Assembly (NCBI RefSeq): GCF_022458895.1
Contig: NZ_JAINFL010000011.1
Coordinates: 124,001 to 188,000, forward strand
DNA length: 64,000 bases
Reading direction: 5' to 3'
DNA from: Roseihalotalea indica
GTDB taxonomy: Bacteria > Bacteroidota > Bacteroidia > Cytophagales > Cyclobacteriaceae
Of the stretch, positions 43,118 to 48,463 are shown one piece after another; the first letter of the stretch is position 1, and each line of letters starts with the position of its first letter. A program made the position numbers and the translations under genes. The notes under the pieces were generated by a model that was not told the DNA's origin, made no database searches, and worked only from the letters and a program-made list of their open reading frames with translations.

Positions 43118-43187
43118 GGCATAACACGCAACCTAGCGCAGCTTTGCTAGGCTGACAGCTGGGGCAGTCCCGCTGCAAAATGTCAGG
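43118..43187 (-). repeat. Degenerate attC-like repeat D
   Basis: This repeat directly follows (and slightly overlaps) the stop of the 43183-43767 gene. It contains CTAGCGCAGCTTTGCTAGGCT and GCTGCAAAATGT, which recur with few changes in repeat B at 46352-46478. Inner CTAGC/GCTAG arms form a hairpin. The outer ends GGCATAAC and GTCAGGG are only partly complementary, so the site looks decayed or recombined. Confidence 0.4.
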
Positions 43188-43767
43188 GACCGTATTTTTT
43201 TATTCTCCAAATTAGTACTATCACGAAGGTCAGCGTCAGAAAATTCGAAAAATAATTCCCAAATTCTATCCAACAGTACTTTTTTATTGCACTTTCTATT
43301 TCCTTGTTTGCTTCGGCAAAGTTTTGTTTATCAATTTTAATTGTTGACGCCCTGTCCCAGGTCATTTGCACAGTTGTTGAGTACCAGTTTCCGTCAAATT
43401 TTGTTCCTATCATTAATCCATTCGCAACACTGCTTTCAAGATCAAAATATTGTTTTTTCTCATGTCCAATTACAAATTCTTTCCAAAATACTTTCGTCTC
43501 ACCTTTAAAGTCTCCAAGGTAGTAAAGAGTCGAATAAGTTGAATTAGTTTCAATTATTAAGTCAGTCGGTGTGGAAGGAATTGCATGGGGAACGGTAAAC
43601 AATAGTTTCAATAGTCCAAATCCAAGAAAACCAAGAATTCCAAGTCCGTAAAGTAGTCTTTGGTGCATTTTTCTTTTTGGCCATATTGACATGAAGACAA
43701 GTCCGATTAAGATTATGTCAACTGCAATAACGAATGGAAGCATAAATCCTAAAAATTGGTAAACCAT
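43183..43767 (-). CDS. Hypothetical membrane protein
   Basis: A 194-residue protein with two N-terminal transmembrane segments (VYQFLGFMLPFVIAVDIIL, LGILGFLGFGLLKLLFTVP), a periplasmic domain of about 90 residues and a C-terminal transmembrane segment (FLTLTFVIVLIWRIKK). I start at ATG 43767; the frame extends to 43911, but that part has no membrane or coding character. No family was recognised. A repeat follows it immediately, as for the other minus-strand genes of this region. Confidence 0.6.
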   Translation of the reverse strand: MVYQFLGFMLPFVIAVDIILIGLVFMSIWPKRKMHQRLLYGLGILGFLGFGLLKLLFTVPHAIPSTPTDLIIETNSTYSTLYYLGDFKGETKVFWKEFVIGHEKKQYFDLESSVANGLMIGTKFDGNWYSTTVQMTWDRASTIKIDKQNFAEANKEIESAIKKYCWIEFGNYFSNFLTLTFVIVLIWRIKKYGP

Positions 43768-44002
43768 GTTTATTGTCTTCTTTTCAATCTCCCCTGACGA
43801 TCTTACGTATGGCCCGTTGCAGGGAATGCGGTAGAATTTTTCGCTGTACCCAAAAGATAGTGAATTGCAATGAATTCCGACTAAAGAGTTCAGCCGCCAT
43901 GAGCTATACATATTATTATCTGCTGTTTTCTGTATTACTTACTGGCTTTTTGATATTCAAAATTCGGTTTTTACCAGAATTTTTCAATAGCATTTGAATA
44001 AC

Positions 44003-44043
44003 ATGTTAGAAATAGTTAACATTATGTTAGAAATAAATAACAT
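44003..44043. promoter_or_regulatory. Two tandem operator dyads of module 1
   Basis: ATGTTAGAAATAGTTAACAT (44003-44022) and ATGTTAGAAATAAATAACAT (44024-44043) are inverted repeats with ATGTTA/TAACAT arms, 21 bp apart, so they lie on the same helix face. They end 4 bp before the ATG of the membrane protein. The open frame continues upstream through them, but that translation is just the repeat read twice. They match ATGT-N12-ACAT, the same pattern as in front of module 2. They are likely binding sites of the XRE protein at 44457. Confidence 0.65.
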
Positions 44044-44047
44044 AGTT

Positions 44048-44473
44048 ATGAAAGCAAGAAATTTAGCCATAGCAAAGTTTTCCGTGGCAGCCTTTATTCT
44101 GGGTTTAATGGGCTTTTGGATATTCAAGACAACAAAGCCATTTAATGAATTCGCTTACGGAGTCATTGGAGTCATGCTGCTTGTCGTCGGATTCGTGATC
44201 TATTCTGGTATTCAGGCCTTCAAGGATGCCAAATCAGGTCTAAACCCAGTGGATGAACTATCGAGAAAGATAACTCAAAAAGCGGCTGCCACCGCCTTCC
44301 ATATTTCGATTTATATGTGGCTTGTCGGTTTGTTTATACTGGATATATTTCCGGTTGATTCGGTAAATAAAGCCAAATTCGTCATAGCAATCGGCATGAT
44401 GGGTATGACCCTCATTTTTCTTTTTATTCGCTTGTACCTTTCTAGAGTAGGAATAGATGATAACAAGGATTAA
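44048..44473 (+). CDS. Small membrane protein of XRE module 1
   Basis: A 141-residue protein with four hydrophobic segments ([75 protein letters not shown]). The loop after the second segment reads [19 protein letters not shown], a DE-xx-RKI motif shared with the module 2 protein. The start at 44048 lies just after the operator dyads. The last 17 bp overlap the XRE gene. The fold resembles DUF2178-like proteins that accompany small HTH regulators, but the family assignment is tentative. It may hold the regulator at the membrane or control its activity. Confidence 0.7.
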
Positions 44474-44648
44474 GGAACTCCGTGCCAGAGAGAATTTGAC
44501 ACAGATTGATCTTGCTCAAAAAGTTGGTGTGCGCAGAGAAACAATTGTTTTTCTTGAGAGGGGAAAGTACAACCCATCCCTTAAATTGGCGCATGATATT
44601 TCCAAGGTATTTAAAATGAGAATTGAAGAGGTCTTTATTCTGGAATAA
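44457..44648 (+). CDS. XRE-family helix-turn-helix repressor, module 1
   Basis: A 63-residue single-domain Cro/CI-type protein: [21 protein letters not shown], then [20 protein letters not shown] (recognition helix region) and [12 protein letters not shown]. About half its residues are identical to the XRE protein of module 2, with the same length. It starts inside the 3' end of the membrane protein gene, which implies coupled translation in fixed ratio. It would bind the dyads in front of its own operon. Confidence 0.85.
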
Positions 44649-44828
44649 TTAGAATGCAAAACCGTAGACTTCTAATTACATAATGACCGGATATGGCATG
44701 TACCTTTGGACTATTTCATACAGCTGTCCTTGGTTGCCCCTCTCTGATGTAGGAGGTGGAATTGATATGGTGAATTCTTCTAATCTTCACTCCTTGTTAC
44801 AAATATTTTGACAAGCATTATAGACTTT

Positions 44829-44891
44829 ATGTAAATAAAACTTGACATTCAGGAAATTTTATTTCATGTTTATGTAAATAAAACTTTACAT
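44829..44891. promoter_or_regulatory. Two operator dyads of module 2
   Basis: ATGTAAATAAAACTTGACAT (44829-44848) and ATGTAAATAAAACTTTACAT (44872-44891) differ at one base and are 43 bp apart, about four helical turns. The second has longer arms (TTTATGTAAA / TTTACATAAA). Both match ATGT-N12-ACAT as in module 1, though the inner sequence differs. They end 21 bp before the ATG at 44913, placing them over the promoter or leader. Confidence 0.65.
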
Positions 44892-44912
44892 AAAGTCAAA
44901 CTTACTATACTT

Positions 44913-45326
44913 ATGAACGCAAAACTAAATGAGTGGGAAGTCACCACCAAAAAGAATGTCAGGCACTTAGCCTTTTGGACTGGGAGTTGGTTGCTTACCG
45001 TAGCCATAGCTACTTTTGGCCCGAAATTTATATGGAATTCCGATTCCATCATTACCATCCTGATCATATTGATCAGCACCATCATTGGCATTGGTATGAT
45101 ACTCATGAACAGGAAGTATATCAATGGATTAGACGAAATGCAAAGAAAAATTAATACGGATGCGATGGCCATTGCACTGGGTGTTGGCGTGGTGGGTGGT
45201 ATAAGTTATTCCATGTTAGATATAGCCGATATCATATCATTCAATGCGGAAATAGGTCATTTAATCATCCTCATTGGGGTAACTTATGTTATTGGAGTTT
45301 TTGTGGGTAATATTAGGTACAAATGA
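44913..45326 (+). CDS. Small membrane protein of XRE module 2
   Basis: A 137-residue protein with four hydrophobic segments (FWTGSWLLTVAIATFG, IITILIILISTIIGIGMIL, AIALGVGVVGGISYSML, LIILIGVTYVIGVFVG). Between the second and third is YINGLDEMQRKINTDAMAIA, the same DE-xx-RKI motif as in module 1. The N-terminal 20 residues are hydrophilic. Its stop overlaps the start of the next XRE gene as ATGA. The two membrane proteins are diverged paralogues by topology and motif. Confidence 0.75.
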   Translation: MNAKLNEWEVTTKKNVRHLAFWTGSWLLTVAIATFGPKFIWNSDSIITILIILISTIIGIGMILMNRKYINGLDEMQRKINTDAMAIALGVGVVGGISYSMLDIADIISFNAEIGHLIILIGVTYVIGVFVGNIRYK

Positions 45327-45514
45327 AAAATCGGATCAAAGTACTTCGGGCAGAACGTAACATGACCCAGGCCGAACTGGCGGATGAAGTTCAGGTCTCT
45401 CGACAAACGATCAACGCGATTGAAAAAGAGAAATTTGATCCTAGTTTACCGCTTGCTTTCAAGATTTCCAGATTATTTCAAGTATCCATCGAAGATATTT
45501 TTCAGGATGATTAA
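45323..45514 (+). CDS. XRE-family helix-turn-helix repressor, module 2
   Basis: A 63-residue Cro/CI-type protein: RIKVLRAERNMTQAELADEV, SRQTINAIEKEKFDPSLPLA, FQVSIEDIFQDD. It resembles the small YozG-like regulators that are often paired with a membrane protein. The 4-bp ATGA overlap with the upstream gene indicates translational coupling. The residues of the recognition helix (RQTINAIEKE against [10 protein letters not shown] in module 1) differ, consistent with different inner operator sequences. Each may recognise its own pair of dyads. Confidence 0.88.
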   Translation: MKNRIKVLRAERNMTQAELADEVQVSRQTINAIEKEKFDPSLPLAFKISRLFQVSIEDIFQDD

Positions 45515-45842
45515 ATAGCTCGAAACGAGTTGTTGTCTCCTGGAAGACACAAATAACATTAGTACGCCTAATAATTTTACTCTTGTAGGGAGGTCTGAAA
45601 GTTTTGGGAATACAACGCTGGTTGAAATTTCATGTGAACACATCCAACGACAACTAAAATAGTATAATTCGCCCACTATCTTCAGATGGTAGGATTGTCG
45701 TATGCACCACAATGCCTAGGACAGCCGTCGCTCGGCTTATTGGCTATTTTACTTTCAATTATCAATATCTTTACATGGAGAGATTAGCTTCCGAATGCGT
45801 TGCAAACAGGGCTGACCGCTGCATGATGTTGTGTGCAGTTTT
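45515..45842. other. Intergenic region between module 2 and the cassette-like genes
   Basis: A 328-bp gap. Its right part is taken by attC-like repeat A (45705-45834). The left part (45515-45704) shows no gene or obvious terminator. It could be a decayed cassette end. Short frames here are overlapped by the repeat and look random. Confidence 0.4.
45705..45834 (-). repeat. attC-like repeat A (degenerate)
   Basis: A stretch of about 130 bp lies 9 bp beyond the stop of the 45843-46337 gene. It shares CTTTCAATTATCA and the GGAG..AGCTTC block with repeat C, and GCTGACCGCTGCATGATGTT resembles the right end of repeat B. Inverted ends are recognisable (GCTGACCGCTGCAT / ATGC..GGACAGCC) but weaker than in B and C, and no clear GTT is left at the far end. 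It probably marks an old cassette boundary. Confidence 0.45.
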
Positions 45843-46337
45843 TTATCTTCTTATTCTCGCCTCTTCTGGAATATTAATAATTCCTGATCCGTCCACTAGC
45901 CATTTTCCGTCTGATTCTTTTATTTTCATAGTCAGTTGGAAAGTTTCCCACTCAATTCCTTGTACAATCAGAAATTCAGAGTCAGTGTCCTGTTGATGTA
46001 ATTCAAATCCTTTCTCAGGATAATCTTGGGCATCTAAAATTGGATCAAATCCTAATCCAAGCTCTGGATCTTGTATCTTTGCCTCTGTGATAATGCGTTC
46101 AAGTTCAGATTTAAAGTTGTCAGTTACGGTCTTCTGTGATTTAACCCATTCAACCAAAGTCAGTTCTGAACTGCCGTCATCGATGAATTTTATGTAATCG
46201 TTGATAAACACAAGGGCAATCTCAGGACTTGGTGATGCAATGACCCGATTTGCTATATCTTCTCGACTGTCTGTTATCGAGGTTTGAAAACCAATTGATA
46301 CAAGTCCAAATATAATTGTCAATAATCTCAAATTCAT
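45843..46337 (-). CDS. Secreted hypothetical protein (DUF3828-like)
   Basis: A 164-residue protein with a signal peptide (LRLLTIIFGLVSIGFQTS). The mature domain alternates helices and strands (FINDYIKFIDDG, FDPILDAQDYPEKGF, FQLTMKIKESDGKWLVDGSG) and ends IINIPEE. This pattern resembles DUF3828/lumazine-like stress proteins in which an NTF2-like fold ends in a GKWLVDG strand. I start at ATG 46337, 15 bp beyond the repeat end. Repeats flank it on both sides, as in a gene cassette. Confidence 0.6.
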   Translation of the reverse strand: MNLRLLTIIFGLVSIGFQTSITDSREDIANRVIASPSPEIALVFINDYIKFIDDGSSELTLVEWVKSQKTVTDNFKSELERIITEAKIQDPELGLGFDPILDAQDYPEKGFELHQQDTDSEFLIVQGIEWETFQLTMKIKESDGKWLVDGSGIINIPEEARIRR

Positions 46338-46351
46338 CTTTTTAAATAGCA

Positions 46352-46478
46352 CACCAACGACCATTGCGAGCCGATGGCCGACTTGTTGGCGTTTTACTTT
46401 AGTTTATCATTTTACTTTCTTGGAGCAGCTGACGAGCTAGCTCAACTTCGCTAGGCTAACGGCTGCAAAATGTTACCC
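46352..46478 (-). repeat. attC-like repeat B
   Basis: A 127-bp element between two minus-strand genes. Read on the minus strand it begins GGGTAAC, which contains the TAA stop of the upstream gene, and ends GTTGGTG. The first arm ATTTTGCAGCCG pairs with CGGCTCGCAAT of the last arm, with one or two extra bases on one side. The centre TTGTTGGCGTTT, with CTTT and GGAGCAG blocks, matches repeat C. The ATG of the next gene follows 15 bp after it. AAC and GTT at the ends are the invariant bases of integron attC sites. Confidence 0.6.
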
Positions 46479-47540
46479 ACCATTTTTACTTAATACTCTT
46501 ATACGATTATCTCTCAAGACACCTATTTTCCCATCGTCAATTAAATATACAAAAGCATTCTTTTTTACTTTTTCCAATTTTACTATGCTAGTAAGCTCTA
46601 AATTTAATTCTGAGATCACCGTCCAGTTCTCTTCAAGAGAGAGATCTTTGGACAAATTCCCTTCTACTAATTCATCACCAGACACCCTATAAATCCTATT
46701 TTTATCAACATCTATTGTACCTGCATCAATGTTCCGTCCAGGTCTATGGACATAATCTTTTTTACCTTCCTCATTTTTCACTTCAACCAGACTGGCATTA
46801 GACTGAAAAATTATCCTTGCAACTAGCGAATCAAATTCCAGAATTGGCCCCGCATCTGGAGAATGACCTGAACCACAAAACACAAAAATTTTATCTTTAT
46901 CAGAGGCAATAGATTCAATAGGAAATAGCTCTATCTGGTAAGCATTGATTTTTGGCTCTAGATATCTATTTTCAATCGTACTAAACACCATCAAATCGCC
47001 ACCCCATTCACCGTAATCAAATCCTAGCCAAATATTGTTTTCTTGGTCAACAGCCATAGCTTTTGGAGGAGACTTTAGATGGTTCACTCGTACCTGAGGA
47101 TTTAGTGATTGATCAAATTCGTATGTTTTCTTGTTATCAAAATTGATAATTTCTGATTCGGTAATCAGGTAAATTGAACTATCTGTGGTTCTGGCAATCA
47201 TCAGAACGTCTTCTTTCACTACACCAATCTCAGCCCACTGATTAGTATCTAAGTTGTAAGACTTTAATTCACCCTTTTTTTTAGCAATCATTAGATTGTT
47301 GTTGGGTAGAGTTATCAAAGTTGATATATCACCGTCTATTTTTCTATACTCATTACCCTCTAAATCAATCAAAAGAAGATTATTTTCAGAATCAATGGCA
47401 GCTACATAATTTTGACAAATCACAAAATCTTTGAAGCTATCAGAAGTTGAATCATGCTGCTCAGTTTCGTTTGCATTGGGGAGACAACTTGACAACACAA
47501 GAAGTAGAATATAGTACATCAATTTAATCTCTAGCTTCAT
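46473..47540 (-). CDS. Hypothetical lipoprotein, probable beta-propeller
   Basis: A 355-residue protein with a lipobox (LLVLSSC, Cys 19). The mature part is a series of short strand repeats (VAAIDSENNLLLIDLEG, STLITLPNNNLMIAKKKG, PKAMAVDQENNIWLGFDYG) typical of WD/NHL-type propellers. It is AT-richer than the catabolic genes to its left. Its ATG lies 13 bp from repeat C and its stop codon is inside repeat B, exactly as in an integron cassette. Function is unknown. Confidence 0.65.
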   Translation of the reverse strand: MKLEIKLMYYILLLVLSSCLPNANETEQHDSTSDSFKDFVICQNYVAAIDSENNLLLIDLEGNEYRKIDGDISTLITLPNNNLMIAKKKGELKSYNLDTNQWAEIGVVKEDVLMIARTTDSSIYLITESEIINFDNKKTYEFDQSLNPQVRVNHLKSPPKAMAVDQENNIWLGFDYGEWGGDLMVFSTIENRYLEPKINAYQIELFPIESIASDKDKIFVFCGSGHSPDAGPILEFDSLVARIIFQSNASLVEVKNEEGKKDYVHRPGRNIDAGTIDVDKNRIYRVSGDELVEGNLSKDLSLEENWTVISELNLELTSIVKLEKVKKNAFVYLIDDGKIGVLRDNRIRVLSKNGG

Positions 47541-47553
47541 TCAATTTTATGGT

Positions 47554-47682
47554 GAGTAACGTAAGATGCACCAGCCGGGCCGGAGTTGTTGGCGTTTATC
47601 TTTCAATTATCAACTTTCGCGTTTGGAGCAATAAGCTTCAGAGTGAGTTTTAAAGAGGCATGGATGGTGCATAATGTTACCC
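47554..47682 (-). repeat. attC-like repeat C
   Basis: A 129-bp element. On the minus strand it begins GGGTAACATTATGCACCA and ends TGGTGCATCTTACGTTACTC. The outer R-like boxes GGGTAAC/GTTACTC and the inner L-like boxes ATGCACCA/TGGTGCAT are complementary, with unequal spacers (3 and 5 nt) that leave unpaired bases. This is the folding plan of an integron attC site. It begins 6 bp after the stop of one gene and ends 13 bp before the start of the next. Confidence 0.65.
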
Positions 47683-47688
47683 ACATTT

Positions 47689-48123
47689 TTATTCTCTGTA
47701 ACAAATTAGTTTTATCCTGTCGTCATCGATATCAAGAGAAAATTGGCCAACGCTTTCAATTAGCTCCTTAATTTGATCTAAATTCTGTTCAAATTGAGCA
47801 TCTCTGTCTATAACTTTTGGGAAGATTAAATACTCAATCTCTTTGAATGTTAACCATCCTCCAAGTGAATTATGACCTTCAAATCCATTTTGCCAATAAT
47901 CAAACCCAAATGTTGTGTCTTCTTCCAAGTACAATTCACCTCTTTGATCCTTCTGTACTTTTTTGAATTCTATTTTTTTGATTTTATCAGCATCTTCAAC
48001 AAGCCTATCTATCAAGCGTACCCATTTTGAGTTTGACATAAGATGCTCCGAAAATCTAGAAACAGCTTTCTCGATTTCTCGGTCGATTTGTTCATCGTAT
48101 CTTTTCGCCTTTTTTGTTCTCAT
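47689..48123 (-). CDS. Hypothetical cytoplasmic protein
   Basis: A 144-residue charged protein without signal or membrane segment. It begins with basic helices (KKAKRYDEQIDREIEKAVSR), followed by SNSKWVRLIDRLVEDADKI and a middle with GFDYWQNGFEGHNSLGGWL and FKEIEYLIFPKV. The SNSKW opening and the aromatic middle recall uncharacterised or immunity-like small proteins (perhaps DUF6678), but I cannot confirm this. It is the most upstream gene of the cassette-like series, starting 9 bp after a GTTACCC box. Confidence 0.6.
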   Translation of the reverse strand: MRTKKAKRYDEQIDREIEKAVSRFSEHLMSNSKWVRLIDRLVEDADKIKKIEFKKVQKDQRGELYLEEDTTFGFDYWQNGFEGHNSLGGWLTFKEIEYLIFPKVIDRDAQFEQNLDQIKELIESVGQFSLDIDDDRIKLICYRE

Positions 48124-48463
48124 TCAAATTGTGGGTAACATAGAGATAGCGCATATTGCGGCTATCTTTTATATAGTTGAGGGTGGTGATTGATGCTAAT
48201 ACAGCAAATTTGATACCTGTCAGGGGTTAGGCTCTGCCAAAAATCAATTGTTCAACATATAGGCTTCTGATTGTAGTTACCAGGTATTCACGATATTTGC
48301 ATTTTCTGTATCAGACGGTTTCTATCATTTAGCAAAGTTAACGGTTCAAGGTCTTCAACCTACTAAACTCATTCATTCACCAAGGGGGTTAGCTGGAGGC
48401 CGTCAATATGTAATTAACCATCCTAATTGCCTCCGGCCAACTGCTAACCACTCTCCCCTCCTA
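48124..48463. other. Intergenic region between accessory region and BlaI/M56 pair
   Basis: A 340-bp gap. The first 45 bp carry the half-site described at 48133-48166. The remainder (48170-48463) has no recognisable gene, terminator or repeat. No integrase gene is present. Confidence 0.4.
48133..48166 (-). repeat. Single attC-like end upstream of the cassette-like series
   Basis: Read on the minus strand this ends in GTTACCC, the perfect complement of the GGGTAAC box of repeats B and C, 9 bp before the ATG at 48123. A hairpin AGATAGCCGCA / TGCGCTATCT with one bulge lies beside it. No matching second half was found further up, so this could be a truncated site or the start of the array. Confidence 0.4.

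Follow-up and report, generated by a model that had tools for sequence, protein, structure and literature searches.

Probable integrase-less remains of a chromosomal integron-like cassette array in Roseihalotalea indica and their Bacteroidota-wide context

The 64,000-nucleotide stretch of Roseihalotalea indica DNA analysed here (contig NZ_JAINFL010000011.1, positions 124,001 to 188,000; hereafter the window) carries a cassette array on its minus strand, spanning 43123-48139, with three recognisable sites of ~120 bp, further degenerate sites and an attI-like palindrome before the first cassette. From 48139 down to 43123 the array genes are small and unrelated, with copies of the ~120-bp repeat between them. 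Comparison with relatives indicates that the locus is very probably what is left, without the integrase, of an integron-like array of chromosomal cassettes, one instance of a Bacteroidota-wide system. Read along the minus strand, the parts of the array are as follows.

48145-48166, minus strand: attI-like palindrome GATAGCCGCAATATGCGCTATC, named on sequence, 5 nt before the GTT (48137-48139) of cassette 1; putative function.
47560-48138, minus strand: cassette 1, gene 47689-48123 (144 aa, no confident family, Pfam match below cut-off only).
47558-47678, minus strand: attC-like site C (121 bp, AAC to GTT), profile 90.6 bits, with arm pairing.
46358-47559, minus strand: cassette 2, gene 46473-47540 (355 aa, no Pfam family), start and end arms complementary at 6/7 variable bases.
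46356-46474, minus strand: attC-like site B (119 bp), profile 85.2 bits.
45713-46357, minus strand: cassette 3, gene 45843-46337 (longer start 46364).
45711-45830, minus strand: third attC-like site (120 bp), profile 68.8 bits, R' degenerate with CATTG for CGTTG.
43796-43930 (approximate ends), minus strand: candidate degenerate site preceding the last cassette, with core-like words seen by eye only and missed by the profile.
43123-43797, minus strand: last cassette, gene 43183-43767; its site (43123-43184) is short or truncated.

The four minus-strand open reading frames (ORFs) and the repeats B and C described by a first-pass annotation are present where it placed them, as is its GTTACCC box ahead of the ATG at 48123, which contains the minus-strand GTT of cassette 1. 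The limits listed for B and C are those defined by AAC and GTT. The annotation has each gene followed by a member of one repeat family. Besides B and C, profile search finds an extra full-length copy at 45706-45832, these three being the sole window matches at E <= 1; the copy at 43118-43182 is short and weak (83% to B, 29 bp). Longer alternative starts exist for two of the ORFs (45843-46364 and 43183-43911), no Pfam match above cut-off was obtained for any of the four genes, and the cassette 2 gene has no match in 13 relatives. By eye, the start of cassette 1, GTTACCCAC, is complementary to its end, GTGGGTAAC; the start of cassette 3, GTTGGTGTGC, to its end, GCACACAAC, with a 1-nt gap; and GTCAGGG at the start of the last cassette to CCCTGAC at its end, C replacing T in both. 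The arms of site B are TTGC-AGCCG/TTGCGAGCCG, the 3' arm having one extra base. Four plus-strand ORFs (43994-45514), absent from the first-pass annotation, also lie within the minus-strand array as two similar gene pairs, each encoding, by eye, a small membrane-like protein and a 63-aa helix-turn-helix-like protein.

A structure-only scan of the window (AACA...CGTT with pairing arms, threshold 9) returns two matches on the minus strand and none on the plus strand or in one shuffled copy, which exceeds chance; two of the three window copies pass as imperfect palindromes with AAC and GTT ends. Single-strand folding gives a mixed picture, singling out the plus strand of site C (z -2.75, 0/200 shuffles as good; minus strand z -1.54, 14/200) and not site B or the third copy. 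Our home-made profile finds three sites in the 64 kb, and a search of the window ORFs that reach 150 aa turned up no integrase. A CALIN (cluster of attC sites lacking integron-integrases) is defined by two or more attC sites recognised with the published attC model and by the lack of a nearby IntI.

The repeat belongs to a site family shared with relatives, of which three uncultured Flammeovirgaceae are nearest by RecQ (77-81% identity) and a Catalimonadaceae isolate stands at 67%. Searched as DNA, repeat C matches 6/6 relatives at E <= 1, the sixth (G006, E 0.67) not significantly. A sequence-only model built from 33 sites, R1, identifies 16, 10, 10, 34, 32 and 34 sites in G001-G005 and Catalinimonas alkaloidigena (G136), respectively, and zero in G006 and G084, with 150 candidates scored per genome. 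R1 sites at E <= 1e-4 occur in at least 11 of 148 genomes of a family-level sample; this is a lower bound, since the filters were stricter and each genome had 22 candidates scored. In C. alkaloidigena 31 of the 34 matches fall in four arrays, and in G004 short ORFs, most of them pointing the same way, form long arrays with R1-type sites between the ORFs. Locus L199 (G088:C1:2922500-2941500) is a single array of 20 sites in several length classes (~82, 123 and 155-166 bp). Among sites of at least 45 bits with ends picked by best pairing, R' is CGTTA or CGTTG in 55/59 and an A follows AAC in 55/59, with variable sequence beyond; the RYYYAAC/GTTRRRY consensus of R boxes is absent. This misfit to RYYYAAC beyond AAC, which the first-pass annotation regarded as its main weakness, is a trait of the site family: outside AACA/CGTTR every cassette has a box sequence of its own, which pairs with that cassette's opposite end. 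Own arms score a mean of 9.39 compared with 6.05 when swapped, and 0/2000 permutations reach the observed sum (63 distinct sites, sequence-placed ends).

The same pairing points to how cassettes move. Across 16 loci, with sites scoring 30 bits or more, the seven variable bases that follow the GTT at a cassette's start pair with those ahead of the AAC at its own end at six or more positions in 28 of 36 segments. For the two boxes within a single integrated site the figure is 1 of 58, and for random pairings 1.5%. In 36 neighbourhoods unselected for arrays, within-cassette complementarity is found in 46/62 and complementarity across integrated sites in 4/107. Complementarity within the cassette but not across the site is the signature of circular cassettes joined by crossover at G^TT. 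In C. alkaloidigena identical cassettes are found in different arrays, in keeping with mobility as single units bounded at G^TT. Among the segments shared there (n=18, >=95% identity, >=150 bp) a GTT lies within 3 nt of 13/18 5' ends and 10/17 3' ends versus 5.4% by chance; the non-GTT ends include those of inserted elements, ends a few bases off GTT and homology outside cassettes. Two recombinase-plus-leader units (L153 and L154), 92.8% identical over 1529 bp, are common exactly up to a GTT and then continue into different first cassettes, and more than 40 identical leader bases in C. alkaloidigena (L152) and G005 (L146) each precede different first cassettes. The leaders are palindromes followed by GTT within 4-9 nt, and in L151-L154, L146 and L281 a palindrome stands at the corresponding position ahead of the first GTT; these are candidate attI sites next to the integrase.

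Two observations concern the content of the arrays. Among the cargo at L146 (6457-16487) and L211 are toxins of the PemK/MazF, ParE and PIN-type families and genes that by eye look DNA methyltransferase-like. Reverse-transcriptase ORFs, by eye group II intron-like, occur at L151 13179-15067 and L154 15232-17148 and in related stretches of L152 and L153, where they lie opposite in strand to the cassettes and adjoin R'' of cassette sites; the accessible part of PMC7923331 describes a similar arrangement for group IIC-attC introns.

All four C. alkaloidigena arrays start downstream of a same-strand tyrosine recombinase. Such an enzyme is also directly upstream of arrays in G004:C56, G005:C42 and G095:C1:5695457, and broken or partial recombinases are likewise upstream of arrays in G018, G005:C9 and G075; among the exceptions, G003:C628 stops at a contig end and G001:C27 is partial and without sites. 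The generality of the association was tested in the 36 neighbourhoods above, which were taken around recombinases regardless of arrays (16 TIGR02249-ranked regions and 20 from a phylum sample; four further regions chosen for R1 sites were excluded). At least one structured site lies downstream in 27/36 and at least two in 21/36, 107 sites in total, compared with 3 matches in eight control stretches totalling 157 kb and zero in the short stretches (18-1029 bp) upstream of the recombinases. In the phylum sample 71/198 genomes have a recombinase-profile match at E <= 1e-55, a count that takes in a few partial or shorter IS91-associated recombinases.

By its sequence the array-associated integrase is not IntI. 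The IntI insert of ~43 residues, which holds the I2 helix, is missing in 45/45 array-type recombinases (56-61 residues in the tested region, versus 97-99 in 120 IntI), and the catalytic set is complete in 42/45. Five of five array recombinases scored fall below the IntI family cut-off of 265 (188-233 bits, TIGR02249), and the enzymes of the relatives' arrays lie outside the IntI family defined by the additional I2 domain. They group as sister to IntI, and a branch with Shimodaira-Hasegawa-like approximate likelihood ratio test (SH-aLRT) support of 100 splits 12 Xer from 30 insert-less rows. The label integron-type given in the first-pass annotation is retained for the array itself and rejected in its classical sense, because the recombinases beside the arrays are without the IntI-specific insert. 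Some array recombinases (L142, L146 and L152; 468, 556 and 474 aa) have an N-terminal extension of ~170-280 aa, for which Pfam gave no match above cut-off. A small zinc-ribbon-like gene is divergent to the array recombinase at L142 10027-10455, L151 2897-3274, L153 17866-18288 and L154 2106-2528, with weak below-cut-off DUF2116 matches in the three tested.

The M56-BlaI gene pair adjoining the window array is conserved in G001, G002 and G004. At this syntenic locus in G001, a sister genome, the region downstream of BlaI holds, in order, the C-terminal remnant of an integrase (72% over 39 aa when compared with the L152 recombinase, E 1.6e-12), AAACGCACCGGTGCGTTT, GTT, a cassette with ends complementary by eye, and a site; a similar leader precedes a cassette elsewhere in G001 (L144). 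No site was found within the 14 and 19 kb examined around the pair in G002 and G004. With remnant, palindrome and cassette in G001 and a palindrome without remnant in the window, the window array is most likely the same chromosomal platform after recombinase loss. The earlier suggestion of a cassette array, possibly a relic, with its integrase elsewhere is supported, as relatives show such arrays with the recombinase elsewhere in the lineage.

We propose that the recombinase would excise cassettes as circles and that the same enzyme would join the cassette site to the attI-like palindrome at G^TT; the copy in the window would once have had a recombinase gene that was later lost. We infer that the array recombinase is what moves the cassettes. 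Several results weigh against this reading. Folding of site B is unexceptional (z -1.10 and -1.69; 26/200 and 10/200 shuffles as good), as is that of the third copy (z 0.03 and 0.42; 98/200 and 129/200), which also fails the structure-only scan, and RNAalifold on a MAFFT alignment of the sites gives zero pairs. An integrase remnant was not detected in the window. Solitary R1 matches occur outside arrays (3/34 in C. alkaloidigena and several in G095 and G075), and the recombinase at G095:C1:3605025 is without an adjacent R1 site. Nine of the 36 neighbourhoods have no downstream site, three of them despite ample sequence; six have less than 1.2 kb of downstream sequence, and three of the remaining 30 are site-free. 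The complementarity test is failed by 8/36 and 16/62 segments. Low values (<=4) in the 36-segment set come mostly from segments above 1.1 kb, with a possible missed site, and 36/44 segments up to 1.2 kb pass in the unselected set. Finally, a full IntI is also present in 3/16 phylum genomes with insert-less recombinases, allowing trans action there.

This last result bears on the reading of the window as an ordinary integron remnant, in which a classical IntI located elsewhere in the genome would act on ordinary attC sites. The shared ends, G^TT logic and attC-like hairpins are equally those of a classical integron, an IntI over cut-off is present in G004 as well as in the three phylum genomes, and in G155 small ORFs on the same strand, with one 122-bp site, form a run ahead of IntI that may be an array. 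Against this, IntI exceeds the cut-off in just 2/148 family-sample genomes and, within the set of 11 that carry R1 sites, in G004 alone, where the enzyme has catalytic changes (QSHRHY) and the structure scan finds zero sites in its 19.9-kb locus. The surroundings of three full IntI genes contain 2, 0 and 2 isolated structure-scan matches, and C. alkaloidigena has zero IntI over cut-off yet four arrays, each headed by an insert-less enzyme, which together make a classical remnant very unlikely. The G004 gene (G004:C13, L139 9518-10594; IntI with insert, 303 bits, QSHRHY) is apparently a disabled orphan, and at G166:C32 and G156:C5 (L284-L287) full IntI genes have no array and are surrounded by what look like ordinary chromosomal genes. 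It is highly improbable that the recombinase instead belongs to an independent mobile element, for example one of IS91 type, that inserts beside arrays without moving cassettes. At L153 7548-9460 an array does contain an insertion in which a related recombinase of 262 aa precedes an ORF for an IS91-like transposase (by eye), but the array-associated enzymes sit at the array head, on the same strand, and are followed by a palindrome and the first GTT; the >40-base leader shared by L152 and L146, and the L153/L154 identity ending exactly at GTT, likewise count against a separate element.

Gene modules moved by an Xer-related recombinase are also known in the form of XerC/XerD pdif modules, which resemble the present arrays in that respect and differ in having short double-stranded dif-like sites acted on by housekeeping recombinases. 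A dif site is 28 bp long. Mobilisation of the cassettes by housekeeping XerC/XerD at dif-like sites would fit the Xer relationship of the recombinase: one of five (L151) passes the NCBI archaeal-XerA model (224 versus a cut-off of 220) and archaeal Xer is among the best fold matches. The sites, however, are hairpins of ~120 bp with cassette-private arms, unlike dif sites, and Bacteroidota Xer lie across the SH-aLRT 100 branch from the array recombinases, which separates the latter from the housekeeping enzymes and makes this explanation almost certainly wrong. We give virtually no credence to immobile gene-following repeats such as terminators or repetitive extragenic palindromic (REP)-like elements. 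The unremarkable folding of B and the third copy and the single sites outside arrays would suit them, but identical cassettes in different contexts with GTT boundaries, the two-end complementarity of cassettes and the recombinase-headed arrays contradict immobility.

The integron-like array that we favour is closest to Vibrio-type chromosomal integrons and CALINs. Both have an imperfect-palindrome site of ~60-150 bp after the gene with AAC/GTT ends and G^TT crossover, attI beside the integrase, toxin-antitoxin cargo and integrase-less arrays. The Bacteroidota arrays differ in a recombinase without the ~43-residue IntI insert, a box consensus of just AACA/CGTTR with longer cassette-private arms, palindromes as attI candidates, and an array downstream of and codirectional with the recombinase. 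Recombination in IntI-based integrons takes place on the single bottom strand, guided by extrahelical bases of the R''/L'' arm, which the double prime in base names such as T12'' and G20'' denotes. Of 62 sites here, 29 have a net extra base on the R'/L' arm, 8 have it on the R''/L'' arm and 25 are equal, whereas the extrahelical bases of classical attC given in the available text of PMC3053210 are T12'' and G20''; the placement of the extra base mostly on the other arm is suggestive only. Complete integrons of the Bacteroidetes/Chlorobi group reported in the consulted portion of PMC9024848 are those of Chlorobi, Ignavibacteriae and Salinibacter ruber, which were detected by IntI, whereas the five array recombinases scored here fall below its cut-off. 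The array enzymes are probably contained in the 'Integron-like' subgroup of simple tyrosine recombinases (PMC8138268); the accessible text of that paper holds the insertion essential for integron function and names no cassette arrays for insert-less members. Among the literature matches listed, consulted in part and covering few subscription papers or preprints, there was no report of insert-less-recombinase cassette arrays in Bacteroidota.

By membership, as judged from sequence, the system is not an IntI integron; by the cassette and breakpoint evidence its working is integron-like. It is conceivable, though we put it at slightly under an even chance, that Bacteroidota hold a phylum-wide second class of integron whose recombinase is sister to IntI and never had the I2 insert. 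In the available part of PMC7790495, I2 is described as necessary for cassette capture, as lacking from all other proteins and as the gain from which integron integrases arose. If a second class exists, cassettes, G^TT crossover, attC-like hairpins and attI would be older than I2, such sites would be recognisable without it, and this class would be a present-day relative of the ancestor, still without I2, from which all integrons descend. Natural cassette arrays beside I2-less recombinases make the account of I2 as necessary directly testable. Given the recombinase match in over a third of the phylum sample, IntI-based surveys may have missed a large system of gene exchange whose cargo includes toxin-antitoxin and methyltransferase-like genes.

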